NCBI RefSeq assembly: GCF_003293845.1
Contig: NZ_QLST01000014.1
Coordinates: 1 to 64,000 of the forward strand
Reading direction: 5' to 3'
DNA from: Flavobacterium tibetense
GTDB taxonomy: Bacteria; Bacteroidota; Bacteroidia; Flavobacteriales; Flavobacteriaceae
Length of the DNA: 64,000 bases
Within the stretch, counting starts at the first letter, position 1, and each line of letters begins with the position of its first letter. Positions 839 to 44,458 of this stretch are shown here, piece after piece. The translations under genes and the position numbers were made by a program. The notes under the pieces are model-generated. The model searched no databases. It saw only the letters and a list, made by a program, of their open reading frames with translations, and had not been told where the DNA came from.

Positions 839-1297
839 CTTAGTTTTGTTTTAACCTGTTTTCGTTAAGTAGGGCTATCTACCTAGGCAAGATTCCATTA
901 CTTATTGAAAACCTCTTTGCGTTCAGTCCTTCCTTGTTTGTGAGACCTGTGCGGTATCTATTCACACCTCGTTGCTTTCAAGTACTATGACCTCTGCTGA
1001 CTTCTCTTTGTGATTAACTCGTAATCTAAGAGACCTCCCCTAGTAACCGCTTTTTCCTTCCGTCTATTCCTGGTACATCTACATGACAGTAATCTGATTT
1101 AGTAGCATGTTCAGAACACTGTTTTGGACTTCGTATTGCTGTGGATACTCATCCTTACTGCTATGCCTCTTATGTACTTTCTGTTCGTCAGTACAGACTT
1201 TTGCCGTTTGACTTCCTTCAGTGCATACCTCGCGGTAAACCACCTTGTCACGTACTAAACCTTCGAGACGTTACTCTCGCGGTTAAGGGACTCACAC
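1..1297 (-). mobile_element. Group II intron, 5' part (3' part beyond window)
   Basis: The 459 bases ahead of the reverse transcriptase start look like group II intron domains I to IV. Read on the minus strand, the sequence begins GTGTGAGTCCCTTAACC at 1297, which fits the GUGYG 5' end of these introns. It continues with CGCGAGAGTAACGTCTCG, a helix typical of domain I, and later a GGGGAGGTCT stretch. The maturase gene then lies in domain IV. Domains V and VI and the 3' splice site are not in the window. The exact 5' boundary is inferred from the GTGTG match alone. The upstream exon, at higher coordinates, ends just after a long inverted repeat. Confidence 0.75.
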
Positions 1298-5832: not shown

Positions 5833-5942
5833 AAAGTTAGCTTTCTAGCCCCGATGGGAGCGGCACCTTGTATAGCGGACAGCGGGAAAATGGATTGCAA
5901 ATAAGTCCCGAGCCATTCGCTTCTAGATAAAAAAGTAACTTT
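5833..5942. repeat. Intergenic repeat-like element with terminal inverted arms
   Basis: The 310 bases between valS and the next gene hold no credible gene. AAAGTTA (5833-5839) and TAACTTT (5936-5942) are inverted, and the interior contains TAGCCCCGATGGGAGCGGCA and TATAGCGGACAGCGGG. From memory, sequences of this kind (AGCCC-GAT-GGAGCGGCA ... TATAGCGGA-AGCGGG) recur between genes in Flavobacterium genomes. The interior is clearly more GC-rich than its surroundings. Its role is unknown. Confidence 0.5.
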
Positions 5943-18392: not shown

Positions 18393-19994
18393 TTATTTGT
18401 TATTCTTAGGTAAAGTAAAATAGAATGTTGTTCCTTCTTGTATTTTAGACTCCAACCAAACTTTACCTCCTAAATTTTCGATGGTTTTTTTAACAATGGC
18501 TAGTCCCACTCCTGTTCCAGAATATTCTCCTTTGGAATGTAAACGTTGGAATATTTCAAAAACTTTATCAAAATATTCTTCTTCAATACCAATACCATTA
18601 TCAGAAACGGCAAACTTCCAAAACTCATCTGATTCTGTACATATGATTTTTATGATTGGATTTACTTCAGATTTTGAATATTTTAATGAATTTCCAATTA
18701 AGTTCATAAAAACTTGTTGAATAGGGACTTGATAGGTATTCAAAAATGGTAAATCTCCATATTCAATTGATGCCTTTTTTTCAATTATGGTATTATTTAA
18801 TATTTTACAAACCTCATCTACAACTTGATTTAAATCAACTACTTTCATTGGTTCATCATATTTTCCAATTCTAGAAAACTCTAAAATATCTAAAATTATG
18901 GTTCGCATTCGTTTAGCACCATCAACAGCAAAATGAATATACTGTTTGGCTTTATCATCTAATTGATCGGCATATTTTTTTTCTAATTGTGTTAAAAAAT
19001 TATTTACCATTCTCAACGGCTCTTGCAAGTCATGTGATGCCACATAAGCAAATTGTTCTAATTCTTTATTTGAATTAGATAATTCTTGTGCTCTCTTTTC
19101 AAGAGTTTTATTAAGAATGGCTAAATCTTGTGTTTTTTCATCAACTAATTTTTTGAGTTTTACAGGTTGATTTATCAAGTTATAGAACAAAATAGCGAAA
19201 GTTATAGAGAACAAAATTCCTAAAATTGAAAACTGCAATGCTCTTTGTTTGTATTGAGGATTATTACTCATTACAAAAATTTCCCAATCTCCAGCAGATA
19301 AATTAGTAGTAAAAGAAACTGCAGAATCCCGATTTTCAATCGGTTCAAAAAAAGCATTTGAATTATTATCTTTTTTACTAATTTGGTACGAATAGGTTTC
19401 ATTCATTCCATTTTTGTTAATTCCTATTGCATTCAGTAAAGTTTCCTTTCGAATTATAACGGCTGCAAAACCCCATAAATTACCTTTTAGATAAATGGGT
19501 AATCGACCAACAATTCCTTCTTCACCTTGTTTTAATAAAAAAGGACCTTCAAAATATAATTTATTACGTAAAATTGCTTTGACCGCAGCCTTTTTATGAA
19601 TTGAATCTTCTAAAACCTCGTAGCCAATAACATTTTCATTTCCATCTAACGGAAAAGTTCTTATTATTTTTTTTCCTTCAACTAATTGTAAAGCATCAAT
19701 ATATTTATTTTCAAGAATTATATTTTTTGAAACCGAATCAAAATAGGTTTCTGCAAATTCGTTTTGGACTAAAAAGGCAATTATTTTTGAAGCACTTTCG
19801 CTATTATTCAATACATTTTCAAATTGATTTTTAACCTGTATGGCTTCTTGTTTTACTTGTAATTGTTCATTTTCCTTTACCACTTTATAAATTCTAAGTG
19901 CTACTAATTGCGTAACTACAACAGAAAATATAAAAGCAATACTTGCTACTTTTAATGGGTTAAAATTTGTGTAGTCTATATATTTGCTATTCAT
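18393..19994 (-). CDS. Membrane histidine kinase with CHASE-like periplasmic sensor
   Basis: The 533-residue kinase has a helix at residues ~16-36, a periplasmic domain at ~37-250, a second helix at ~253-274 and a coiled coil to ~315. The sensor contains DALQLVEGKKIIRTFPLDGN and GPFLLKQGEEGIVGRLPIY, which resemble CHASE-type ligand-binding domains. The H-box is YVASHDLQEPLRMV (His321). The ATPase boxes are NLIGNSLKYSK, VSDNGIGIEE and GTGVGLAIVKK. Its start overlaps the end of the giant kinase gene by 8 bases, so translation is probably coupled. Confidence 0.93.
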   Translation of the reverse strand: MNSKYIDYTNFNPLKVASIAFIFSVVVTQLVALRIYKVVKENEQLQVKQEAIQVKNQFENVLNNSESASKIIAFLVQNEFAETYFDSVSKNIILENKYIDALQLVEGKKIIRTFPLDGNENVIGYEVLEDSIHKKAAVKAILRNKLYFEGPFLLKQGEEGIVGRLPIYLKGNLWGFAAVIIRKETLLNAIGINKNGMNETYSYQISKKDNNSNAFFEPIENRDSAVSFTTNLSAGDWEIFVMSNNPQYKQRALQFSILGILFSITFAILFYNLINQPVKLKKLVDEKTQDLAILNKTLEKRAQELSNSNKELEQFAYVASHDLQEPLRMVNNFLTQLEKKYADQLDDKAKQYIHFAVDGAKRMRTIILDILEFSRIGKYDEPMKVVDLNQVVDEVCKILNNTIIEKKASIEYGDLPFLNTYQVPIQQVFMNLIGNSLKYSKSEVNPIIKIICTESDEFWKFAVSDNGIGIEEEYFDKVFEIFQRLHSKGEYSGTGVGLAIVKKTIENLGGKVWLESKIQEGTTFYFTLPKNNK

Positions 19995-22900
19995 TTGAGT
20001 AATTTTTAGGGATTATAAATGAAAAAATACTTCCTTGTCCTTCATTAGACTCGACCCATATTTTTCCACCCATGTTTTCCAGTATTTTCTTAACAATGGA
20101 CAAACCAATGCCTGTTCCGCTATAATCTTCTCTGACATGTAAGCGTTGGAAAATTTCAAATATTTTATCAAAATACTCACCGTTAATTCCAATACCATTG
20201 TCTTTTACGGAAAATTGCCATTCATTTTCCAATTCCTTTGCTCTAATCTCGATTAAAGGAGATTCGTCTGCTTTCGCATACTTAAGTGCGTTACTAATTA
20301 AATTTTGGAAAATTTGTTTTAGAGGTGTTTTATGATTGAAAATAACAGGTAGTTTATCAATCAATATGGTAGCATTCTTTTCCTTGATTATTTCGTTTTG
20401 AAACAGTACTACTTCGTTAACTATTTGTTCTAAATCAATAAAATCCTTGCGTTCATCAATTTTTCCAATTCTTGAAAACTCTAAAATATCTAAGATAATT
20501 TGGCGCATTCTTTTAGCTCCATCAACAGCATAATGAATATACATTTCAGCTCTTTCATCGAGTTGATCTTTGTATTTCTTTTCTAACTGACTTAGAAAAT
20601 TAGTTACCATGCGCAAGGGCTCTTGCAAATCGTGTGATGCTACATAAGCAAATTGCTCTAATTCTTTATTAGAAAAAGCTAAATCATCAGCTTGTTTTTT
20701 AAGAATTTCATTTAAAGACGTTAAGGAATTTTCATATTCTTTTCGATACGTTATATCTGTCATTGCTCCTATAGCTCTTGTGGCTCTTCCTTGATCGTTT
20801 CTAATAAATATAGCTCTATCCATGACATAAGCATACGTGCCATCTGCCTTTAAAAACCTGTATTCTTCATGCCAATTTACTTTGGAACTATCTTTAATAT
20901 ATTGTTTAATCTTTTTAGAAATTTTAACTCTATCTTCTGGATGTATGCATTGAATTAAAAAATCTAATGTAGGTTCTAACTCATTTAGATTGTAATGAAA
21001 AAGTGTTGAAAAACCTTTAGACCAAAATAGACTATTAATCTCTATATTATAATCCCAGATGGCATCATTAGTTGCTTCTGTTACCTTTTCAAATCGCTCA
21101 TTGGTTTCCTTAATTTTTTGTTCAGAAATTTTCTTGATACTTACATCTTTGAAGTATACCGATAATCCTTCTTTTGTTGGGTAAGCACTAACTTCAAACC
21201 ACAAATTTGAGGTAGGATAATATTCATCAAACGTAACACTTTGTTGTGTTTCTTTTGCTCTATGATATTCGGAATGAAATTTTAATTCTTTTGCATCTTC
21301 ATAAACTTCCCAAAGGTTTTTGCCAATTACATCTTCCCTTTTTTTATTGAGTGTTTCTTCTGCTTGTTTGTTCCAGTAGGTGATTATCCAATTGGCATCT
21401 AGTGCATAGAATCCATCACCAATACTTTCCAAAATATTATTTTTCTCTTTCAATATATTTTTTTGCTCTAAATCGGCTAACCTTGACTGTATATTTGCAG
21501 ATAAATGATATGTAATGTTAGATAAAAAGGATACCTCTTCATTTGACCAGACTCTTTCCGATGTACAATCGTCAAAACCTAAAAAACCATAGAATTTATT
21601 AAAAACAAACATTGGAAAAAACAAGAAAGATTTAACGCCTTGACTTTCCATTGTTGTTTTAAGTTTTGATGGTGGTAATTTTGAAGTTATTTCGGATATA
21701 ACTTCAGCTTTTTCTAACAACAAAAAATACTCCTGATATTCTTCTAAAACTAAATTTTGTAAAAGAGGGTTGTTTATTTCTGTTGTAATTCCTTCATTTG
21801 TCCATTCTACTCTTTGACTACAAGACATTAACCCATTAATTAAATTTTTATCAATTTCAAAGAAATAAATACGATCAACATTTACAGTTTTCCCCATAAT
21901 ATTAAAAATATTTTCTAGGGTTGTATCTATATCTGCCGAATTCATTAACTCTAAAATAATTTTTGTAATTGATAATTGATAACTATTTTTTTGTTCTAAT
22001 TGTAGTTGAGCTATTTTACGTTCACTTATATCTTGAAAACTACCAAATAATCTTATGCATTCTCCATTTCCAAATTCAGCATTTCCTATTGCTCTAACCC
22101 ACTTTTGTTTATTACTTGTTGTTACAATAATTGCCTCAATATCAAAAGATTTTCCAGTTTCAATGGCTTCAAATATACTGGTAGAAACAAGCTCTCTATA
22201 ATCTTCTCTGTAAAATTGCAGCACACTTTCCATTTCTGGTTGAAAATCTTCGGCAACTTCGGCAATTAATTTTGTCATTGGTGACCAATGCAATTTTTGG
22301 TTAATCACATCTATTTCCCATCCACCCACTTTTGCCAATTTAGAGGCATTTTCTAACAAATGTTGTAGTTCAATTAATTCTGTTACATCTCTACCATAAG
22401 CAAAAACATTTCCTTCTTCATCAAATAAGTCGGATGAACTCCAAGAAATCCATCTGTAGTTTCCAGATTTAGTTTGGTACCTGTTGATAAAATTAGACGC
22501 ACGTCGTTCTCCTGTTATAGTTTCTTCATACTCTACCTGAGTATTTATAATATCATTTGGATGAATGAAAGTTTCAAAAGGCATATATGTAATTTCATCT
22601 TCACTTCTTCCGAGTAACTTACATAAAGCAGGATTAACTTTAGTAAAGTAGCCATTGGGAGAAGCGATTGCCATAATTTCTGGCGCACTTTCAAAAAGCA
22701 AAAACATTTCTTCCTCTTTTTGTTTCCGCTTAATTTCTGCTCCTAGATAATTTTGTAATTCTGTAAATTTTTCAATATTACTCTCAACTTTGAATGCACT
22801 TAATTCGCTCATTAAAACAAGAACGCCAATAACTTTATTGTTATGATAAATAGGTAATCCTATAGCTGAAGTTAAATTTGTGTTTTTAGCTGCTTCTTTC

Positions 22901-24999
22901 CTTGTAAAAGCTTTAGTCTTTTTTATTTCATCCCAAACTTGCACTTTTTTGCTTTGGAAAGTTTTTCCAGGAAGTCCTTCGTTGATTTTTACTTTTAATT
23001 TAAGATTTGCTTTATTATAAAAACCATTAGCTTGTTTTGCTTTAGCATATTTTGCAACAAGATTAAGCTCTTTTTTATTACTGTTTGTTAACCAAATTTC
23101 TGCAATTGAAAAATTGTCAATTGTAGTTAAATGCTTCAATACATCTGATAAAACATCTTTTAAACCTTTGTCATCTTTAAAAAACTTTGAAATATCACTC
23201 AAGAGCTCTTTTTGAATGGCCATTAATTTAACTTGAGATATATCTCTTAAAACTCCGACCATTCTTATTGGCATTCCCGTTTTATCTCTTATGATATGTC
23301 CGTTCTCTTCTACGTAGGCAAATGTTTCATCGGCTTTTTTAAAACGAAATTCTTTAACCCAAAAATTGTGATTAGGATCAAATAAAAAAGAATCCCATAA
23401 ATTTTTGAATTTCTCATCATCGTCTGGATGCATTAAATCAACCCAATTTTGTAATGAAAATGAATCGTTTTTAAAGTCGTGTCCGAAAATAGTTTTAAAG
23501 CTATCGCTCCAATAAAAAATATCATTTTGAATATCCCATTCATAGATAGCATCTCTAGAAGCTTTATTAATTAATTCGTAACGCTCGTTACTTTTTTTAA
23601 TATCCTTTAAATATTCAAATTTCTCAATTATAATAGACAATAATCTTTGTGAACGTTCAAATGCCTGTTCTTCATATTTTGAAGGCATTCTAATAGTTTT
23701 ATAATAATTTGCAAATGTAGCAACAACCTCATTGTTTTTATTAAAAATGGGTTGTGACCAACAAGCCTTGAATCCATAAGTTATAGCTAGTTCTTTGTAC
23801 TTCGCCCATCTAATATCGGTTTCAATATCGGATACAATTACTCTTTGCTTTAAAAATGCAGCTGTTCCACACGAACCTTCATTTTCTCCAATCTCAACTC
23901 CATTAATTATTCTTATATAATCTTTTGGCAATGAAGGAGAAGCTAAATTTTTAAGTTTTCCTTTTTTTACTTCTAAAATTGAAGCCAACATATCTGGAAA
24001 AAGTACTTCTAGCTTTTTACTATAAAGCTCTAAAACCTCTTTGAGTTTAACTTGGTTTGACATGCTAAACTCCATTATTTCTTTTTCTATTTTCTCTAAT
24101 TCTTGGTAAAAATATTCAGAAGTAATATCCTTAATTGCACCAACAACTCGGAAAGCAATACCATTCTCATCACGTAAAATAACTGCTTTATCCACTATAT
24201 AAGCATAATCCCCACTCGACTTTAATAAACGATAATTTAAAGTCCATTCATTTTTAGAAACATCTTTTAAAGTTTTTCTAAAACTTCTTATCATTCGCAT
24301 TTTATCCTTTGGATGGATAAGTGAATTAATTAAGCTGTTGTTATGCTTGGGGTTTTTGCTTATGATACCAAAATTTTCATAAAAACCGTTACTTAGAAAA
24401 ATTTCATCTTTCTTGATATCATAATCCCAAATACTCTCAGAACCTGCTCGCATGATCATTTCAAAGCGTTCATTACTCTTGTTTAACGCTTGTTGAGCTT
24501 CAATTAAATCAGTAACTTCAATAGAGTTGATTACAATTCCTCTTACAGTATCATCATTTAATAAGTTTGTTCCTGTGCTTTGTACCCATGACCAACCCGT
24601 AAAAGTATTTTTAAATCTATAGACAGAGGATTTTATTCTTTTTTCAGTACTTAATTTTGAAAACTCTGTTTTAATTTTATCCAAATCATCAGGGTGAAAA
24701 AAATCAAAAGCATTCTTACCTATTAGTTCTTCTTCAGAAAGACCAAGGATTGTAGGATAGTTTGGACTAACATAAAGATACGTTCCATCTGGACTAACAA
24801 TAGCTGTTAAATCAGCTCCATGTTGTACCAAAGCTTTAAATCTTTTTTCACTTTGAGTTATTGCTTCTTCTATTATGACTTTTTCTGTTACATCTTGAAG
24901 GGAAACTACATAACTAGTTCCATCTTCCTCCTGAAGATTTATTTTTGCGGTATTGTATTCAAGAATTAACTTTTCGATTTTGCTTTTATTCAACTTCAT
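19987..24999 (-). CDS. Giant cytoplasmic multi-PAS/GAF histidine kinase (1670 aa)
   Basis: Without membrane helices, this soluble kinase strings together sensor domains. By eye these are PAS ~50-170, PAS ~175-305, GAF ~310-470, PAS ~470-600, GAF ~605-760, PAS ~765-880, PAS ~885-1005, GAF ~1010-1180, and PAS ~1185-1300 and ~1300-1425. Then come the H-box YVASHDLQEPLRMVTNF and the ATPase domain (NLISNALKYAK, VKDNGIGING, GTGIGLSIVKK). The first ~42 residues are the tail of another PAS domain (DGTSYVVSLQDVTEKV), whose front half is the C-terminus of the protein encoded just upstream in the same frame. The kinase core closely resembles that of the next gene. Its signals are unknown. Confidence 0.93.
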   Translation of the reverse strand: MKLNKSKIEKLILEYNTAKINLQEEDGTSYVVSLQDVTEKVIIEEAITQSEKRFKALVQHGADLTAIVSPDGTYLYVSPNYPTILGLSEEELIGKNAFDFFHPDDLDKIKTEFSKLSTEKRIKSSVYRFKNTFTGWSWVQSTGTNLLNDDTVRGIVINSIEVTDLIEAQQALNKSNERFEMIMRAGSESIWDYDIKKDEIFLSNGFYENFGIISKNPKHNNSLINSLIHPKDKMRMIRSFRKTLKDVSKNEWTLNYRLLKSSGDYAYIVDKAVILRDENGIAFRVVGAIKDITSEYFYQELEKIEKEIMEFSMSNQVKLKEVLELYSKKLEVLFPDMLASILEVKKGKLKNLASPSLPKDYIRIINGVEIGENEGSCGTAAFLKQRVIVSDIETDIRWAKYKELAITYGFKACWSQPIFNKNNEVVATFANYYKTIRMPSKYEEQAFERSQRLLSIIIEKFEYLKDIKKSNERYELINKASRDAIYEWDIQNDIFYWSDSFKTIFGHDFKNDSFSLQNWVDLMHPDDDEKFKNLWDSFLFDPNHNFWVKEFRFKKADETFAYVEENGHIIRDKTGMPIRMVGVLRDISQVKLMAIQKELLSDISKFFKDDKGLKDVLSDVLKHLTTIDNFSIAEIWLTNSNKKELNLVAKYAKAKQANGFYNKANLKLKVKINEGLPGKTFQSKKVQVWDEIKKTKAFTRKEAAKNTNLTSAIGLPIYHNNKVIGVLVLMSELSAFKVESNIEKFTELQNYLGAEIKRKQKEEEMFLLFESAPEIMAIASPNGYFTKVNPALCKLLGRSEDEITYMPFETFIHPNDIINTQVEYEETITGERRASNFINRYQTKSGNYRWISWSSSDLFDEEGNVFAYGRDVTELIELQHLLENASKLAKVGGWEIDVINQKLHWSPMTKLIAEVAEDFQPEMESVLQFYREDYRELVSTSIFEAIETGKSFDIEAIIVTTSNKQKWVRAIGNAEFGNGECIRLFGSFQDISERKIAQLQLEQKNSYQLSITKIILELMNSADIDTTLENIFNIMGKTVNVDRIYFFEIDKNLINGLMSCSQRVEWTNEGITTEINNPLLQNLVLEEYQEYFLLLEKAEVISEITSKLPPSKLKTTMESQGVKSFLFFPMFVFNKFYGFLGFDDCTSERVWSNEEVSFLSNITYHLSANIQSRLADLEQKNILKEKNNILESIGDGFYALDANWIITYWNKQAEETLNKKREDVIGKNLWEVYEDAKELKFHSEYHRAKETQQSVTFDEYYPTSNLWFEVSAYPTKEGLSVYFKDVSIKKISEQKIKETNERFEKVTEATNDAIWDYNIEINSLFWSKGFSTLFHYNLNELEPTLDFLIQCIHPEDRVKISKKIKQYIKDSSKVNWHEEYRFLKADGTYAYVMDRAIFIRNDQGRATRAIGAMTDITYRKEYENSLTSLNEILKKQADDLAFSNKELEQFAYVASHDLQEPLRMVTNFLSQLEKKYKDQLDERAEMYIHYAVDGAKRMRQIILDILEFSRIGKIDERKDFIDLEQIVNEVVLFQNEIIKEKNATILIDKLPVIFNHKTPLKQIFQNLISNALKYAKADESPLIEIRAKELENEWQFSVKDNGIGINGEYFDKIFEIFQRLHVREDYSGTGIGLSIVKKILENMGGKIWVESNEGQGSIFSFIIPKNYSNE

Positions 25000-26709: not shown

Positions 26710-29700
26710 ATGGAAAGATATATGATGGGAAAATTACAACTTAAACTAGTATCAAAAATACTTTTGGTTTCATTTTTTGGAACATTTCAATTCATTTCAG
26801 CTCAATGTGTTGATAATTCTATTCGTCCTTCTGACACTTATTCTGTTGCGTCTTGGTCACCAAGATGTCATAATGGAAATGACGGTGAAATTAACGTTTT
26901 TAACATTGCTTCAACTTCAGGAAGTGATTTAATTAATCAATCGTATGCTGTAAGAATTTTAAGTGGTCCTAATGCTCCAATGCAGTTTCCTATTCCTACT
27001 GGAGCAACTAATTATACAATAACAGGTTTACAAGCAGGAAACTATATCATTGATATAATTGACGCATGTGGAGGAAATAGTGCTGATAAAAGCATCGTAA
27101 TTACAAACCCAATTCCAAATATTACTTCAACAATTGTTTTAAAAGATAAAACCTCAGAAGAAAACAGTCAGGCTTGTGGAACCAATTTAAAATTTAAAAT
27201 TTCGATGGTAGCTTCTGGTACAGGAGGAGATGCAACATACACATTTACAAATAATTTAGGAGAAGCTTTAAGTTTTACAAGAGTTATCCCTAGAGTAATG
27301 AATGCGGGTTATTTTAGTTATTCTTTAGACGCCGAAATACCTGAAGCATTTTTTAATGATACATCAATAAACTACACTTGTGAAAATTTATGTGGTATTG
27401 TTGGACAAGGTACTTTACAAAAACCAAATACACACAACATGATATGGGGACAACCTAATATGATGGATGCTCAAGATCCTAATAATCTTTGCAATATTGG
27501 TTATGATGTTAAGATTTTTAGAAGTTACATGACAAATCCTATAACAGTTACTGTTGAAGAAACAAATAATCCCAATAGCATCCCATTAAACTTTTTTGGC
27601 GAGCCAATAGCACCACAAACTATAAATTTAATTCACTTAAACGCAGCACCTATTGGAATGGCCACAGTTATTAGTTTAGGTTTAAAATACAATACACATT
27701 ACACATTGCATTTTGTTGATTCTTGCGGTCTTACTGCAACAGAAACTATAATAAAAGAAGCAACTGGTTTTAATCCTACTTTAGTTTGTGATGTTAATGT
27801 TGCTGTGGTTGATCCAAATGGTTATTTTGATGATGCATCATTATTTAAATTTAATGCACTTCCGTTATCTGCTCAATCAATTGGACCATTACAGGTCACT
27901 GTTAACTCTGGTCCAACTACTTATACAACATCTTCAGGAAGTGGCGATGCAATAACAACATCAACCATAACATATCCATACAGTTTCTTAATTGGAACAC
28001 CGTATGAAACAATTAATGCTCAAAACGATAATGTGCGTTCTTTCCCTCCAGGAAATTATAATTTCACAATAACTGACGGTTGTAACAAAACGTATACTTT
28101 CAGTCAACAAATGAATTGTGTTAGAAATAATAGCATTTCACATCAACTAAATACTTGTGCTAACGTTTCAAATTTAGTTAATACAAAAATTACTGTTCCT
28201 AGAGCTATGTTAGGTTCGAGAGCAACTATTTATAAAACAGACGGAACGGTACTATTTACAGGGCCAATTAGTACTGCTGCTCCTTTCAACTTTACCCTAT
28301 TTACTGGAGGCGCTTTTGGAAATATTTCTGTTGATTTACCAAACAACGAATCTTATATCTTTAGATATGGAGGAGTAAAAGCAAATGGAACTTTAAGCGA
28401 ACCCGCTCAGTTTGGTGGAACAGGTTCTTTAAATAGGTTAACTGACGGCTACTTATATGAATACATGTTTGATGTTGCTTTGGCTCCATTTCAATTTACA
28501 TCAATTATTGCTTGTGATAATGAAGTGGAAATGTCAGTTTCTGGTGGTACAGCTCCTTATAATTTTACGTTACTAGACAGTTCTGGAAACACACAATTAT
28601 TTCCTAATCAAAGTGCTGCAAATTTCACTGGATTATTATCTGGAATGAACTATATCGCAAAAGTAATTGATAGTTGCGGAAGAGAATTTAGTCAAGAATT
28701 TACAGTTCAGGAAAAACCAACTCCAGTTATTCAAAACATTATTCATCCTGCTTGTAATATTGCATTGGGAAGTATAACTTTCTCAAATTTACCAATCAAT
28801 TGGACACTAATTGACGCAGCAAATAGTCTTGAATTTAATGGAAATAGTAATGAGTTTACTATTGAAAACTTAAGTTCTGGTATTTACTCTTTCGTTTGTA
28901 TAGATAACGACACTCAATGTGCTGTAATTAATGAATTAAATGTAGAAATTGAAATTGCTCAACCTTGTCCAATTACAACATGTGATAATATCACTTTCAA
29001 TGTTGGAGAAGTTGTTCAAATAAATGTACTAGAAAACGATATTGATGGTGCAGAAATTGATGTAACAAGTGTTAGAATTTTAGAAGCATCCCTTTTTTCA
29101 TCTGTAAACTATGATTCAAATGATGAAATTATCACAGCAACAATTCTTGAAGAAGGAATTTGGAATGTTGATATAACAAGTGGTACAATACAATTTCAAC
29201 CTAATGCTGATTTTACAGACACACCGTCGCCAATTCAATACTACGGAAAAGATTTACAAGGCAATGTTTCAAACTATGCAACTATAACACTTGATTTATT
29301 ACCAATAGCTGTAGATGACCAATTAGTTTTTACAAATGACGCAACAATTACTTATAATGTCTTACAAAATGACACATTAGGTGATTTAGTAAATCCAGAG
29401 TCTTTAAGTTTTGTATTACCCGAAAATATTACTGGAATAACATATAATGTGAATACTTCTCAATGTATTGATGAATTAGTGGTTGCAAATGAAGGAACAT
29501 GGACAGTTTGTCCTACTACTGGAGCAATCTCATTTCAACCAGATACAAATTTCAATGGAGTTCCTACGGATAAATTCTATACTGTTAAAGATTTCCAAGA
29601 CAACATTTCTAATATTGCAAGGATTAGCTTTAATTCTTCTTGTGATTTTACTGTAATTTGTCCAACTGAAACAACAATTGAAGTACAATGCTACAATGAG

Positions 29701-30981
29701 ATACCTGAAAATTATTTTCTTTCAAATCATGATTTTGAAAATTTGGGAGGGCATATAGTAGGTAATAAATGTCAAAACGTATTAATCATTGCTGAAAACT
29801 CAAGTTACAATGGGTGTAATAGCGAAATAATAAGAACTATAACAATTGGTGAATTTCAGGATTCAAATGGTAATGGAATTATTGATGATGAAGAACAAAA
29901 TGTATTAAACATATATACTTGTACCATTACGTATGTTATAAATGATACAATTACACCTAAATTTATCGAAATATTACCTGAGAATATGGTTGTTTCTTGT
30001 AACTCTATTGAAGCTCCTATTCATTTAACAGCAACTGATAATTGTAGTACTGCCGATGTTAATTTTATAGAGTCTATTGAAAATGGTTCTTGCGAAAGTA
30101 ACTATATCATTACAAGAACATGGATTGCTACTGACGATTGTGGAAACGCAACGACACATACTCAAACTATTACTGTTCAAGATACCGAAGCACCACAGTT
30201 AATTACAGATGTACCTAGTACAATTGAAATTAGTTCAAATGACACCGTTCCAAGTGTACCTAGTTTAGTTTTTGTAGATAATTGCGGTTCAGTTACAGTT
30301 GATTTTAATGAAGAAATAATGGAAGGCGACTGTGAAAATTCATATGAAATTCATAGAACTTGGACAGCTACTGACTCTTGCGGAAATGAAAGCTATTTTC
30401 TTCAAATTATCTCAGTGATGGACACTACTCCACCTCGATTCACTTCACCTTTTCCAGCTGATATAACTGCGAGTTGCGATAACATTCCAGAAATTCCAAT
30501 ATTAATTGCTTTTGATGGCGTAAATGAAGTGGACGTAATTTTTGAAGAAGAAAGAATTGAAGGTGATTGTAATAGTCGAAATGAACTTCGAAGAACTTGG
30601 ACTGCAACTGATTCTTGTGGCAATTCAGCATCTTATACGCAAGTTATTAATTTAGTTTGTCATATCAATATTTACAATGCTTTATCTCTAAACGACGATG
30701 GAAAAAACGACATCTTCTTACTAGATGGCATTGAGTGCTTCCCTAATAACTCTGTTGAAATTTACAACCGTTGGGGAGCAAAAGTATTTGAGACAGCTTC
30801 TTATGATAACAAATATAGTGTTTTCAAAGGTGTTTCTTCAGGAAAAGGAACTGTTTCAAGAAACGAAAAATTGCCAACTGGAACCTATTTCTACATAATA
30901 AATTACCAATACAATCTAGATAATTCTAATCAATTTGAAAACGTTCAAAAAACAGGTTATCTATATATTGTTAGCAATTAA
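26710..30981 (+). CDS. Large T9SS-exported surface protein (adhesin-like) with gliding-motility-type C-terminal domain
   Basis: The 1423-residue protein has a signal peptide (ILLVSFFGTFQFISAQ, ending near residue 32). It ends with a CHU_C/gliding-motility-associated C-terminal domain: NIYNALSLNDDGKNDIF, VEIYNRWGAKVF and LPTGTYFYIINY. This is the class of C-terminal signal used by type IX secretion for large surface proteins. The middle holds beta-rich repeats. At about residues 1000-1320 there are tandem units of the form DNCxxxVxF...GxCxxxYxIxRTWxATDxCGN, the unit being ~85 residues. Cysteines are frequent in the extracellular part. It is followed by a PorP/SprF gene and an OmpA gene, as in SprB-like modules. 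Surface adhesion or gliding is likely. The start could be either this ATG or one of the next two in frame. Confidence 0.88.
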   Translation: MERYMMGKLQLKLVSKILLVSFFGTFQFISAQCVDNSIRPSDTYSVASWSPRCHNGNDGEINVFNIASTSGSDLINQSYAVRILSGPNAPMQFPIPTGATNYTITGLQAGNYIIDIIDACGGNSADKSIVITNPIPNITSTIVLKDKTSEENSQACGTNLKFKISMVASGTGGDATYTFTNNLGEALSFTRVIPRVMNAGYFSYSLDAEIPEAFFNDTSINYTCENLCGIVGQGTLQKPNTHNMIWGQPNMMDAQDPNNLCNIGYDVKIFRSYMTNPITVTVEETNNPNSIPLNFFGEPIAPQTINLIHLNAAPIGMATVISLGLKYNTHYTLHFVDSCGLTATETIIKEATGFNPTLVCDVNVAVVDPNGYFDDASLFKFNALPLSAQSIGPLQVTVNSGPTTYTTSSGSGDAITTSTITYPYSFLIGTPYETINAQNDNVRSFPPGNYNFTITDGCNKTYTFSQQMNCVRNNSISHQLNTCANVSNLVNTKITVPRAMLGSRATIYKTDGTVLFTGPISTAAPFNFTLFTGGAFGNISVDLPNNESYIFRYGGVKANGTLSEPAQFGGTGSLNRLTDGYLYEYMFDVALAPFQFTSIIACDNEVEMSVSGGTAPYNFTLLDSSGNTQLFPNQSAANFTGLLSGMNYIAKVIDSCGREFSQEFTVQEKPTPVIQNIIHPACNIALGSITFSNLPINWTLIDAANSLEFNGNSNEFTIENLSSGIYSFVCIDNDTQCAVINELNVEIEIAQPCPITTCDNITFNVGEVVQINVLENDIDGAEIDVTSVRILEASLFSSVNYDSNDEIITATILEEGIWNVDITSGTIQFQPNADFTDTPSPIQYYGKDLQGNVSNYATITLDLLPIAVDDQLVFTNDATITYNVLQNDTLGDLVNPESLSFVLPENITGITYNVNTSQCIDELVVANEGTWTVCPTTGAISFQPDTNFNGVPTDKFYTVKDFQDNISNIARISFNSSCDFTVICPTETTIEVQCYNEIPENYFLSNHDFENLGGHIVGNKCQNVLIIAENSSYNGCNSEIIRTITIGEFQDSNGNGIIDDEEQNVLNIYTCTITYVINDTITPKFIEILPENMVVSCNSIEAPIHLTATDNCSTADVNFIESIENGSCESNYIITRTWIATDDCGNATTHTQTITVQDTEAPQLITDVPSTIEISSNDTVPSVPSLVFVDNCGSVTVDFNEEIMEGDCENSYEIHRTWTATDSCGNESYFLQIISVMDTTPPRFTSPFPADITASCDNIPEIPILIAFDGVNEVDVIFEEERIEGDCNSRNELRRTWTATDSCGNSASYTQVINLVCHINIYNALSLNDDGKNDIFLLDGIECFPNNSVEIYNRWGAKVFETASYDNKYSVFKGVSSGKGTVSRNEKLPTGTYFYIINYQYNLDNSNQFENVQKTGYLYIVSN

Positions 30982-30992
30982 AGGCATTGAAA

Positions 30993-31345
30993 TTCATTTG
31001 GGGGAATGAATTTTAGTAATTATTGTCATTGGAAGGAGCTATGCTTCTTCCAGACAATAGTTAAAAAAAAGAAAGTAGTTAAGTTCATTTGGGGGAATGA
31101 ATTTGGTAATTATTGTCAAGGGAAGAGGCTTTGTTTCTTCCCAGACAATAATATAAAAAAGAAAGTAGTTACGTTCATTTGGGGGAATGAATTTGGTTAG
31201 TATTGTCATGGGGAGAAATCTATTTTCTTCCCAGACAATATCTTAAAAACTACAAAAAAAATAGTTGAGTTCATTTGGGGAAATGAATTTTGGTAATTAT
31301 TGTTAAGGGAAGAAACAAAAGAAACTTCTTCCCTGACAATAGTTT
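30993..31345 (+). repeat. Four tandem ~90-nt units, each with two conserved hairpins (candidate structured RNA)
   Basis: The 394 bases between the adhesin and the PorP/SprF gene hold four tandem units starting at 30993, 31084, 31174 and 31270. Each opens with TTCATTTGGGGGAATGAA (last copy one base different), a 6-bp stem with loop TGGGGG. Each then forms a longer hairpin closed by ATTGTC/GACAAT (31022/31053, 31112/31144, 31202/31234, 31299/31335) with an inner stem such as GGGAAGA/TCTTCCC. Inner stems differ between units but stay paired: GGAAG/CTTCC, GGGAAGA/TCTTCCC, and a G-U version in the third. An A-rich spacer ends each unit. A short frame across the first three units encodes a repeated peptide, but it breaks in unit 3, so I favour a non-coding role. 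Confidence 0.8.
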
Positions 31346-31375
31346 TAATTAAAAAAACTTAAATCTTTTTAGAAG

Positions 31376-32302
31376 ATGACTTTAAAAAATACAATCAAAT
31401 ACAGTTCTTGCTTATTGTTATTATTATTGAGTAATTTATCTTTTGCTCAACAAGATGCCCTATTTACTAACTACATGTACAATACTAATATTTTTAACCC
31501 TGCATATACAGGAACTAGAGAAGTAATTAGTGTATATGGAATGCATAGATCACAGTGGGCCGGACTAGATGGAGCGCCAAGTACAAGTGTTTTTTCTTTT
31601 CAATCTCCTTTGAATTCTAATTTAAGTTTTGGCATAAACTTTATCAACGATCAAGTTGGTCCTTCCGATGAAAATAATCTATCAGTAGATATTGCCTATA
31701 AATTTCCTATAAGCGAAACTGATTTCATTTCGTTTGGAGTTAAAACAACTGCTAATTTATTCAATGTTGATTACAGAAAGTTAAACATTGAAGACGGAAC
31801 TGATATTGAATTTCAAAATAATGTTGATAATAGATTCTCTCCTAATTTTGGTGCTGGCGTATATTGGTATTCCGAAAAACATTACTTAGGACTTTCTATT
31901 CCCAATTTTTTAGAAACCGAATATTATGACGGTGCTTCAACATCATTAGCTAAACAAAGAATGCATTATTATTTAATGGGTGGATATGTTTTTGATGTCC
32001 ATGAAAATATTAAATTAAAGCCAGCATTTCTTGCTAAACTTATATCAGGAGCGCCAGTACAATTTGACACTACATTAAATTTGTTATTTTATGAAAAATT
32101 CACATTAGGTTCTGCTTATAGATGGAACGCTTCGTGGTCTGGATTAGTTGGTTTTCAAATCTCTGATAGTTTATTTATAGGATATTCTTATGATACCGAT
32201 AATTCAAGACTAGCCAATTACAATTCGGGTTCTCATGAAATTTTTATCAGATTTGAATTTCTTTCTCAATACACTAAGATGCTTTCGCCAAGATTTTTCT
32301 AA
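31376..32302 (+). CDS. PorP/SprF family outer-membrane protein (type IX secretion)
   Basis: The 308-residue outer-membrane protein has a signal peptide (LLLLLSNLSFAQ). The family's opening QQDALFTNYMYNTNIFNPAYTGTRE leads into a beta-barrel-like C-terminus with alternating hydrophobic strands; the short quote NYMYNTNIFNPAYTG is the hallmark. SprF proteins are needed for surface delivery of the adjacent large T9SS adhesin in Flavobacterium. That makes the upstream 1423-residue protein its probable client. The start codon is preceded by the four structured repeats. The next gene follows after 11 bases, in one operon. Confidence 0.93.
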   Translation: MTLKNTIKYSSCLLLLLLSNLSFAQQDALFTNYMYNTNIFNPAYTGTREVISVYGMHRSQWAGLDGAPSTSVFSFQSPLNSNLSFGINFINDQVGPSDENNLSVDIAYKFPISETDFISFGVKTTANLFNVDYRKLNIEDGTDIEFQNNVDNRFSPNFGAGVYWYSEKHYLGLSIPNFLETEYYDGASTSLAKQRMHYYLMGGYVFDVHENIKLKPAFLAKLISGAPVQFDTTLNLLFYEKFTLGSAYRWNASWSGLVGFQISDSLFIGYSYDTDNSRLANYNSGSHEIFIRFEFLSQYTKMLSPRFF

Positions 32303-32313
32303 CTTAAATAATT

Positions 32314-33984
32314 ATGAAAAAAACTGCTATTTTTTATTTAATTCTATTACCCTTTACATGTACTCAAGCCCAACAAAAAAATATTGTAAAAGCTAATACT
32401 GCTTATGAAAATTATGCCTTCATTGATGCTATAAGTATTTATGAAAAAGTGGTAGAAAAAGGATTTGGAACTGCTTCCATTTACAAAAAACTGGCCGAGA
32501 GTTACTATGCCAATGCCAATTATAGTTTAGCTTCAAAATGGTATGAACTTTATTTTTCAAACAACACAAGTGCTATTGAAGCTAATACGTATTTACGTTA
32601 TTACCAATCCCTTAAAAGTATTGGAAATGAAAAAAAAGCAATCGAAATTTTAGAAATTTTCGCTCAAATTTACAAAGATGATTCTAGAGCAAAAATGTTC
32701 TTAAGCAATAAGAATTTTAATGAAAAGATTGACCTTAACAGCAATTCCTACGAAGTTAAAAATGAGGAAAATTTAAATTCTGAATTAAGTGATTTTGGAT
32801 GTTCATTTTTTAATGATAATGTAGTTTTTAGTAGTACTAGAAACACTAAAGAAAATAGCAAGTCTATAAACAAATGGAACAACCAACCCTACTCTAGCCT
32901 ATACATCCAACAATCCAATAGTGTCAAAGACTTCAACCTTGACAATACCCAAAAACACAACATATCCTCTGCTGTTTTTACTAAAGATGGTCAAACGGTT
33001 TATTATACCAAAAATGCTGTCAATAAAACAAAAAACGCCAAAATAGGGAATTTAAAAATTTATGCTGCAAAATATAAAAAAGGTACATGGTCTGAAGAGA
33101 AAGAACTTTCATTTAATGGAAACTACAACTGTGCACATCCTACTTTAGATCAAAATGAAAAATATCTTTATTTTGTATCTGATATGCCAGGAACTTTTGG
33201 GTTATCCGATATTTTTAAAGTAGAAATTGTATCCGAAAATACATTTTCAAATCCAATCAATTTAGGAAAATCAATTAATACCGAAGGACGAGAAACTTTT
33301 CCTTTTATTGCCGAAAATGGAACTTTATATTTTTCATCTGACGGACATTTAGGTCACGGCGGATTAGATATTTTTTATGGCGAATACAATTTAAATAATG
33401 GTGAATACGCTGTTTATAATATTGGAACTCCAATAAATTCTCCATTTGATGATTTTGCCTATTGCGAAAAAACAAATGCAAAATCTGGTTATTTCTCGTC
33501 AAATAGACCTAACGGAAAAGGTTTTGATGACATTTACTCTTTTACTCTTTTACAAAATGAAGTATTAAATGAAAACATCGATGATTTATTCCAAATAAAA
33601 ATTCAATCGGGTACCGATTTAGCTAAACTTTTTGAATTGGAAGATATTTATTTTGAAAAAAGTGAATGGGAAATAGCCGATGAAGAAATTTTTAAATTGC
33701 AAATTTTACTTGAAATTTTAGAACAAAATCCTAATTTAAAAATCGATATAAGAGCACATACCGATAGCAGAGCTTCGGAACAATACAACCTAAAATTATC
33801 TGAAAAAAGAGCCAGCGCTACAAAAAAATGGCTAATAAATAATGGAATAGATAGTAATCGATTATCTAGCAAAGGGCTTGGAGAAAGTCAACTGGTAAAT
33901 CATTGTTCAGATGGTATTTCCTGTTCGGAAGATGAGCATAAAATGAATCGCAGAAGCGAATTTATTGTTCATATGAAACAATAA
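32314..33984 (+). CDS. OmpA-family protein with TPR and WD40-like (PD40) repeats
   Basis: This 556-residue envelope protein has a signal peptide (FYLILLPFTCTQAQQ). TPR-like helices span residues ~22-130 (AYENYAFIDAISIYEKVVEKG). PD40 beta-propeller-type repeats span ~150-410 (YLYFVSDMPGTFGLSDIFKV, LYFSSDGHLGHGGLDIFYG). The OmpA peptidoglycan-binding domain covers ~445-556, with DIRAHTDSRASEQYNLKLSE and SSKGLGESQLVNHC. The trio of adhesin, PorP/SprF and this protein is common in gliding Bacteroidetes; the OmpA protein probably ties the surface machine to the cell wall. That role is inferred from context. Confidence 0.92.
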   Translation: MKKTAIFYLILLPFTCTQAQQKNIVKANTAYENYAFIDAISIYEKVVEKGFGTASIYKKLAESYYANANYSLASKWYELYFSNNTSAIEANTYLRYYQSLKSIGNEKKAIEILEIFAQIYKDDSRAKMFLSNKNFNEKIDLNSNSYEVKNEENLNSELSDFGCSFFNDNVVFSSTRNTKENSKSINKWNNQPYSSLYIQQSNSVKDFNLDNTQKHNISSAVFTKDGQTVYYTKNAVNKTKNAKIGNLKIYAAKYKKGTWSEEKELSFNGNYNCAHPTLDQNEKYLYFVSDMPGTFGLSDIFKVEIVSENTFSNPINLGKSINTEGRETFPFIAENGTLYFSSDGHLGHGGLDIFYGEYNLNNGEYAVYNIGTPINSPFDDFAYCEKTNAKSGYFSSNRPNGKGFDDIYSFTLLQNEVLNENIDDLFQIKIQSGTDLAKLFELEDIYFEKSEWEIADEEIFKLQILLEILEQNPNLKIDIRAHTDSRASEQYNLKLSEKRASATKKWLINNGIDSNRLSSKGLGESQLVNHCSDGISCSEDEHKMNRRSEFIVHMKQ

Positions 33985-43370: not shown

Positions 43371-43420
43371 CGGAATTTATTTTGAAATCGATAGCCCTAG
43401 CCCAGATTGTAGTGGATAGC

Positions 43421-43512
43421 TTTTTTAGTGTTTTATTTTAATTTTGTGCTCACTACAAAGCGACCTAAGAAGCTCTTGTAGTGGGCTACAAAACTTAGTA
43501 AACACTAAAAAA
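43421..43512. repeat. Nested inverted repeat between divergent genes
   Basis: An outer 13-bp stem, TTTTTTAGTGTTT (43421-43433) with AAACACTAAAAAA (43500-43512), encloses an inner stem, CACTACAA (43451-43458) with TTGTAGTG (43476-43483). The inner arm sequence TTGTAGTGG also occurs just outside at 43408-43416. It resembles a small mobile or REP-like element and occupies most of the gap between the isomerase gene and trmD. Confidence 0.65.
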
Positions 43513-43533
43513 CTAGGAACGAAAAGCTGGAAG

Positions 43534-43565
43534 TTGCTTCTAAAATAAATTATCGTTTATCTTTG
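43534..43565 (+). promoter_or_regulatory. trmD promoter, possibly giving a leaderless mRNA
   Basis: TTG (43534-43536) and TATCTTTG (43558-43565) are 21 bases apart and match the Bacteroidetes pattern fully. The trmD ATG follows only 4 bases after the -7 box, so transcripts would start at or beside the start codon. Confidence 0.6.
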
Positions 43566-44387: not shown

Positions 44388-44458
44388 CACCCACTTTGAA
44401 CCAACCTCTGGCGATAGACGTGTATGTTGCTTTGAATCAAATTATTATACTTAAAACT

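Follow-up and report, generated by a model that had tools for sequence, protein, structure and literature searches.

The closest described counterparts of the element treated here are the stem-loops of malE-malF, puf and menBCE, stable hairpins that lie behind a first gene and mostly lack a U-tract. According to the part of PMC5927463 used here, U-tract-less hairpins between operon genes in E. coli shield the mRNA of the upstream gene and adjust stoichiometry; of 34 gene pairs with upstream stabilisation, 26 end at a stable hairpin of this sort, and several protective hairpins can come in succession in one operon. Within the genus Flavobacterium, a precedent for uncoupling two operon genes is Rfp18 of F. 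psychrophilum, which acts on the fpp2-fpp1 intergenic region (PMC9723704, in the sections drawn on here). Rfp18 is a trans-acting sRNA, unlike the cis-acting element proposed below, and we compare the two by position and not by sequence. The need for balanced expression is documented in F. johnsoniae, where two type B substrates of the type IX secretion system (T9SS) depend on a cognate PorP/SprF shuttle whose gene follows immediately; the shuttle is scarce, and stoichiometric production of the two is inferred by the authors (PMC12618676, from the portion consulted). Our literature search, with many subscription journals outside its reach, found no account of how such operons arrive at this balance and no report of an element like the one described here.

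The window analysed, a stretch of 64,000 nt from one contig of the 2.74-Mb genome of Flavobacterium tibetense (G000), contains on its plus strand a gene for a T9SS substrate or adhesin (26710..30981), in which Pfam recognises CshA repeats, HYR_4C, Big_9 and a CHU_C type B C-terminal domain. It is followed by a gene for a PorP/SprF-family shuttle protein (31376..32302; PF11751) and by one for an OmpA and PD40 protein (32314..33984; Pfam), which we call PorE-like by analogy with operons described in the consulted part of PMC12618676. The three genes are consecutive and co-directional, and from this layout we presume that they form one operon. The 394-nt gap between adhesin gene and porP is filled by four two-hairpin units of about 75 nt each, and porP is preceded by a short, A/T-rich leader (31346..31375) without the CCCC tract that most relatives have at this place. 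Upstream of the adhesin gene lies a gene for a 1670-residue histidine kinase with multiple PAS and GAF domains (19987-24999, minus strand).

With a score of 408, the array ranks first among the tandem repeats found in the window. All four units lie on the plus strand: unit 1 at 30990..31063 (small hairpin 30993-31010, large hairpin about 31019-31061), unit 2 at 31081..31154 (31084-31101 and about 31109-31152), unit 3 at 31171..31244 (31174-31191 and about 31199-31242), and unit 4, with the interrupted U-tract behind it, at 31267..31345 (31270-31287 and about 31296-31343). The 18-nt small hairpins thus begin at 30993, 31084, 31174 and 31270, a spacing of 91, 90 and 96 nt. In each unit the small hairpin, UUCAUUU-GGGG-RAAUGAA, is joined to the large one by a U-rich spacer. 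The predicted fold of the whole gap has an energy of -138 kcal/mol, against -76.5 +/- 5.1 kcal/mol in 100 shuffled sequences (z = -12). A sequence-only reading of this DNA had described four tandem units with these periods and with two hairpins each, and coordinates and folds agree with it. Both of the hairpins it described are real, and their details are refined here. In the small hairpin we count seven pairs, the seventh being U-G in units 1 to 3 and U-A in unit 4, which leaves a loop of GGGG; the sole change in this hairpin across the units is the G to A in unit 4 that keeps this pair. In units 2 to 4 the outer and inner stems of the large hairpin are separated by an asymmetric internal loop of 2 nt on one side and 1 nt on the other, and unit 1 differs from them by one base at this loop.

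The variation among the units follows the pairing. In a structural alignment of all four units, unit 1 included, that we set by hand, 110 of 115 cells pair, and 11 of the variant pair types keep pairing while 5 break it; with assumed null chances of 0.17-0.33 this outcome has a probability of 6e-6 to 0.004, the 16 variant types not being fully independent. Divergence is 15.7% in paired columns and 33% in unpaired ones. It is lowest in the small hairpin, where 3 of 108 comparisons differ (2.8%); the GGGG loop of this hairpin differs in none of 24. G-U cells outnumber A-C cells by 15 to 3 among the 115, as expected if the selected form is the RNA of the coding strand. Single units fold better than their shuffles on the plus strand (z = -5.3 to -7.6) as well as on the minus strand (z = -3.9 to -6.2). 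A two-hairpin covariance model, R1, scores the units at 74-99 bits on the plus strand and 20-33 bits on the minus strand, a difference that carries the bias of a model built from the plus strand of units 2-4.

Neither the whole array used as a DNA query against 40 genomes nor R1 run with strict filters against 299 genomes reported any genome other than that of F. tibetense. The gaps beside the nearest PorP orthologues, however, hold a single related hairpin in each of three genomes, G179, G255 and G023. The hairpin of G255 (L030) was a weak R1 match under default filters (35 bits, E = 5e-5), and those of G179 and G023 were recognised by reading the gaps. A second model, R2, made from these three hairpins and units 2-4, added G082 and G203 in a search of 299 genomes and G395 when the sample was extended to 398. 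The large hairpin is therefore found in 7 of 398 sampled genomes of the genus, F. tibetense included, and in all seven an adhesin frame precedes it and PorP follows, the link to the porP/sprF gap for which the sequence-only reading had proposed a search. The flanking proteins were both identified by Pfam in F. tibetense, G179, G023 and the further genome G047 discussed below, and by open frames and blast in the other genomes. Each of the six relatives has one copy, in a gap of 132-148 nt. In the seven species this hairpin, placed behind the adhesin stop codon, has an outer stem of 8-9 bp, a 2x1 internal loop and an inner stem of 9-10 bp whose 5' arm is purine-rich. The window adhesin is 39-45% identical to the adhesins of G179, G255, G023, G082, G203 and G047 over 1210-1422 residues, and the adhesins of the relatives are up to 86% identical to one another. 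The sequence-only reading had allowed for a very recent structured repeat; this description suits the copy number and does not suit the hairpin, which is common to species with adhesins as divergent as these. R2 matches in G008, G482 and G488 were rejected, since none lies between adhesin and porP genes; that of G482 is inside an open frame. The latter two genomes were the two further weak matches from a family-wide sample of 249 genomes in 235 genera.

Covariation was assessed in an alignment of nine sequences, the six relatives and units 2-4; unit 1 was excluded, as MAFFT aligned its inner stem out of register. A further alignment, again lacking unit 1, gave a similar picture. In this alignment 99.4% of 159 cells are paired and 9 of 18 pairs have changed on both sides, compared with 1-2 in controls in which the pairing was slid. 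None of 500 shuffles reached the observed covariation score, while the count of further pair types was reached by 432 of them and does not stand out. G023, G082, G203 and G395 are close relatives, and the two-sided changes mainly mirror the split between F. tibetense and the others. Together with the 11 against 5 pair types among the units, these changes across species support the earlier proposal of selection for RNA structure. The small hairpin is less widespread. As good a hairpin 5' of the large one arose in 0 of 300 shuffles for F. tibetense, 6 of 300 for G255 and 4 of 300 for G047; it is not convincing in the other five genomes, where 100-226 of 300 shuffles did as well (134 for G179), and in the single-copy relatives it does not have the G-loop form.

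A phylogenetic tree of PorP (33 rows) placed the seven element-bearing PorPs such that two label changes are needed, a value that none of 500 shuffles matched. These seven and the PorPs of G009, G095, G210 and G047 are separated from the rest by a branch supported at 99/96; inner grouping is weak (83/72), and F. tibetense and G047 are long branches whose placement is unsure. The adhesin-porP gaps of G009 and G095 are 4 and 10 nt long, and in G210, where the frame chosen by our script was wrong, reading the sequence gives roughly 10 nt between the adhesin stop and porP. These three genomes have no room for the element, which is therefore dispensable in the clade.

G047 has a second tandem array. 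Its adhesin-porP gap of 764 nt (L096, 1723-2486, minus strand) contains six tandem units of 124-130 nt, the last being cut off by porP; TRF also reports the repeat. The unit has a small-hairpin sequence UAAAUUUC-GUGGG-GAAAUUUA, folded in five of the six units, and a large hairpin, and its sequence is unlike that of the window's units: it is not among the R2 matches, and no G047 unit is paired with a window unit by blastn. The blastn result says little, because the accepted relatives mostly go unpaired too, with only a 12-nt and a 20-nt match, both in G179, between them and the window. With one G047 unit as query, 64 other genomes had matches, which we rejected; among those listed, none covers the hairpin part and most fall on the A-rich linker. 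The G047 array may be either analogous or anciently related to the window's, a likeness of layout and position that falls short of proof of homology.

We also surveyed other adhesin-porP gaps, using 59 picked by hand from the PorP matches listed, themselves part of all matches. Three without an upstream frame and six without a CHU-like end, as judged by a short sequence pattern and not by Pfam, were set aside. Among the remaining 50, 14 are under 30 nt, one is 39 nt and 35 are at least 40 nt long, and 17 of these 35 have z <= -3 (from 12-30 shuffles each). In only one of the 17 is the hairpin followed by at least five T within 8 bases, and nine belong to one sequence family, ATGGCTTAG...CTAAGCCAT. 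This short-hairpin family, with differing loops, occurs in other species at L119, L127, L128, L130, L132, L134, L142, L146 and L150. The start of porP was taken as the ATG nearest the match, so that several gaps run into porP codons (L111, L118, L121 and L131 among them), and L111 is counted among the 17. In the separate set of gaps read beside the nearest PorP orthologues, the rows for L028, L031, L032, L036, L044, L047 and L049 call for care, as the choice of frame or start gives a wrong gap or one that is not between adhesin and porP; for L031 the distance is 764 nt to the first in-frame ATG, against 803 as computed. As a control we took 13 other co-directional gaps in the window; 4 likewise have z <= -3, so the counts do not establish a general enrichment of hairpins in adhesin-porP gaps. 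The F. tibetense genome has seven PF11751 matches. Three of its other adhesin-porP gaps were read, and judged by energies alone, without shuffles, two hold hairpins of -21.5 and -19.0 kcal/mol and the third holds none. In contigs C10, C13 and C18 of the same genome (L170-L173), PorP copies with an identical C-terminal end are followed by identical OmpA-type frame ends in four places, of which two open a contig and two follow the ends of different adhesins; this looks like a duplicated shuttle cassette.

A comparison with 4227 Rfam families gave no gathering-level match in the gap; there were 15 weak matches up to E = 10, the best (0.016) lying below its gathering score, and there were no matches in L087, L089 and L096. 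Elsewhere in the window we observed two matches to the Flavo-1 RNA (5843-5893 and 43395-43537, the second with a long insertion in the terminal loop), a group II intron D1-D4 match (1046-1239, minus strand, 109.6 bits) and an L19-Flavobacteria ribosomal leader match (44402-44429). Exact matches to the 18-nt small hairpin came from 19 stretches of public genomes and from 2 viral contigs. We rejected these 21 matches by their context, judged by eye on about 140 nt, and four of them (L056, L058, L072 and L073) were also searched with R1. L058 reached 30 bits (E = 5.5e-4) but is inside the frame of an ABC transporter, and L056, from a Flavobacterium MAG, is a lone site of 19 bits. In L053, L061 and L071, which are Clostridium and Intestinibacter records, the 18-nt sequence is found within a longer conserved palindrome.

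The array is a real, conserved RNA element, most likely of the coding strand, and the explanations that compete over what it does draw on different parts of the evidence. That it is a DNA-level repeat, REP-like, MITE-like or prone to recombination and with no function as RNA, would account for units that are tandem and palindromic and whose copy number varies between species. REP and BIME elements are likewise palindromic, extragenic and repeated, but they are dispersed in many intergenic places, and the array is confined to one gap. With up to three mismatches the small hairpin occurs in the F. tibetense genome at the four exact sites of the array and at 15 others, each with 2-3 mismatches, and a reversed control pattern occurs at 10 sites. 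Outside the four units, the only R1 matches in this genome better than E = 1 are on the array's own reverse strand, and strong plus-strand matches are found at the array only, one locus in 2.74 Mb; the scattered, REP-like matches that the sequence-only reading had named as evidence against it did not appear. Phage and plasmid records held no match to the array at E = 1e-5, and the G-U bias and compensatory changes also speak against a DNA-level repeat, which we consider very unlikely. An even less probable explanation, and in our view a highly improbable one, is a small coding repeat. A 64-residue open frame with repeated peptide motifs (31006-31200) runs through units 1 and 2 into unit 3, but it stops early in unit 3, unit 4 by our reading is not open in that register, no counterpart peptide was seen on reading the gaps of the relatives, and the variation follows pairing; the frame is probably due to chance. 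The strong hairpins in an intergenic gap might instead act as an attenuator or partial terminator and so reduce porP transcription, or they might give rise to processed small RNAs, and many 3' and intra-operon transcribed regions are reported for F. psychrophilum (PMC9723704, in the part used here). Unit 4, the last before porP, has 5-6 T in the 8 bases behind it (TTTTAATT), so that weak termination may occur there, and the hairpin of G082 has 6. The T run of unit 4 is broken by AA, however, and hand counts over 8 bases give no more than 3 T for units 1-3, 2-4 for the other five relatives and 0-1 for the G047 units, low counts which suggest that the element as a family is probably not a terminator. 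A terminator scan of 30900-31400, confined to loops of 3-8 nt and thus blind to the long loop of unit 4, returned no site. The exact promoter box TAnnTTTG is missing from both strands of eight gaps, and the window gap has nine sites with one mismatch. These results give no support to the family of independent small RNAs that had been suggested earlier, and we regard attenuation or small-RNA production as quite improbable.

Two further explanations turn on the G-rich strands. In one, translation of porP would be controlled by long-range pairing between a GGGG strand on the 5' side of the hairpin and a CCC(C) strand just ahead of the porP start; the resulting helix would close around the hairpin, and the small hairpin, sharing a strand with it, would compete and so form a switch. 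The helix CAAUUUUUGGG/CCCAAAAAUUG of G179 was equalled by 1 of 500 shuffles and GGGGAAAU/AUUUCCCC of G047 by 10 of 500, and in both genomes we read the small hairpin and the long helix as overlapping. Pairing of UAUUUUGGGG with CCCC...RAAAUA in G023, G082, G203 and G395, where the G395 slice starts 3 nt late in a gap of truly 133 nt, was equalled by 28-43 of 500, in species that are closely related. Against this, the window does not have the helix (278 of 500 shuffles did as well), G255 does no better than chance (213 of 500), all of these shuffles keep base composition only, and the G179 small hairpin is itself at chance level, so that we consider translational control unlikely. In the other, the G-loop hairpins would be a multivalent platform for an RNA-binding protein, in the manner of a CsrB/RsmZ sponge or a repressor-binding leader. 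We take CsrB/RsmZ-type RNAs to be alike in having repeated hairpins with G-rich loops; the window's array differs in being embedded between genes and in having a large second hairpin. The very low divergence of the small hairpin relative to unpaired columns agrees with binding, as does the G-loop hairpin of G047, the other species with a tandem array, but the single-copy relatives are without the G-loop form. CsrA (PF02599) has no match in the F. tibetense genome, with matches in 3 of 14 control genomes, and a CsrA sponge is for this reason unlikely. A binding platform as such appears distinctly unlikely.

We tentatively prefer, at somewhat less than an even chance, a cis-acting intercistronic RNA element of the adhesin-porP mRNA, and our best guess at its role is differential expression or control of mRNA stability. 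It would work like the intercistronic structures of malE-malF or puf, by analogy with which the folded RNA would block 3'-5' exonucleases, mark a cleavage point, or both, and the output of the adhesin, shuttle and PorE-like genes would be kept at a set ratio. Both the place and the strand of the element suit such a role. More copies would add to the strength of the barrier, and the copies presumably arose by tandem amplification in place. The element is thus of a known general kind and, as far as we searched, new as a family; unlike the stem-loops of malE-malF, puf and menBCE, it is a two-hairpin unit and a covarying family tied to one T9SS gap, with tandem copies, and the unusual feature is tandem amplification in two species. 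A further proposal, which we consider unlikely, is that it serves as a copy-number rheostat, a module by which single-copy relatives would fix the adhesin-to-shuttle ratio and which would have been amplified at least twice independently, to four units here and six in G047. Natural versions with one, four and six copies between the two genes make the question of balance directly testable. If the rheostat proposal is true, gain and loss of units by recombination would adjust the secretion of surface adhesins while leaving genes and promoters untouched.
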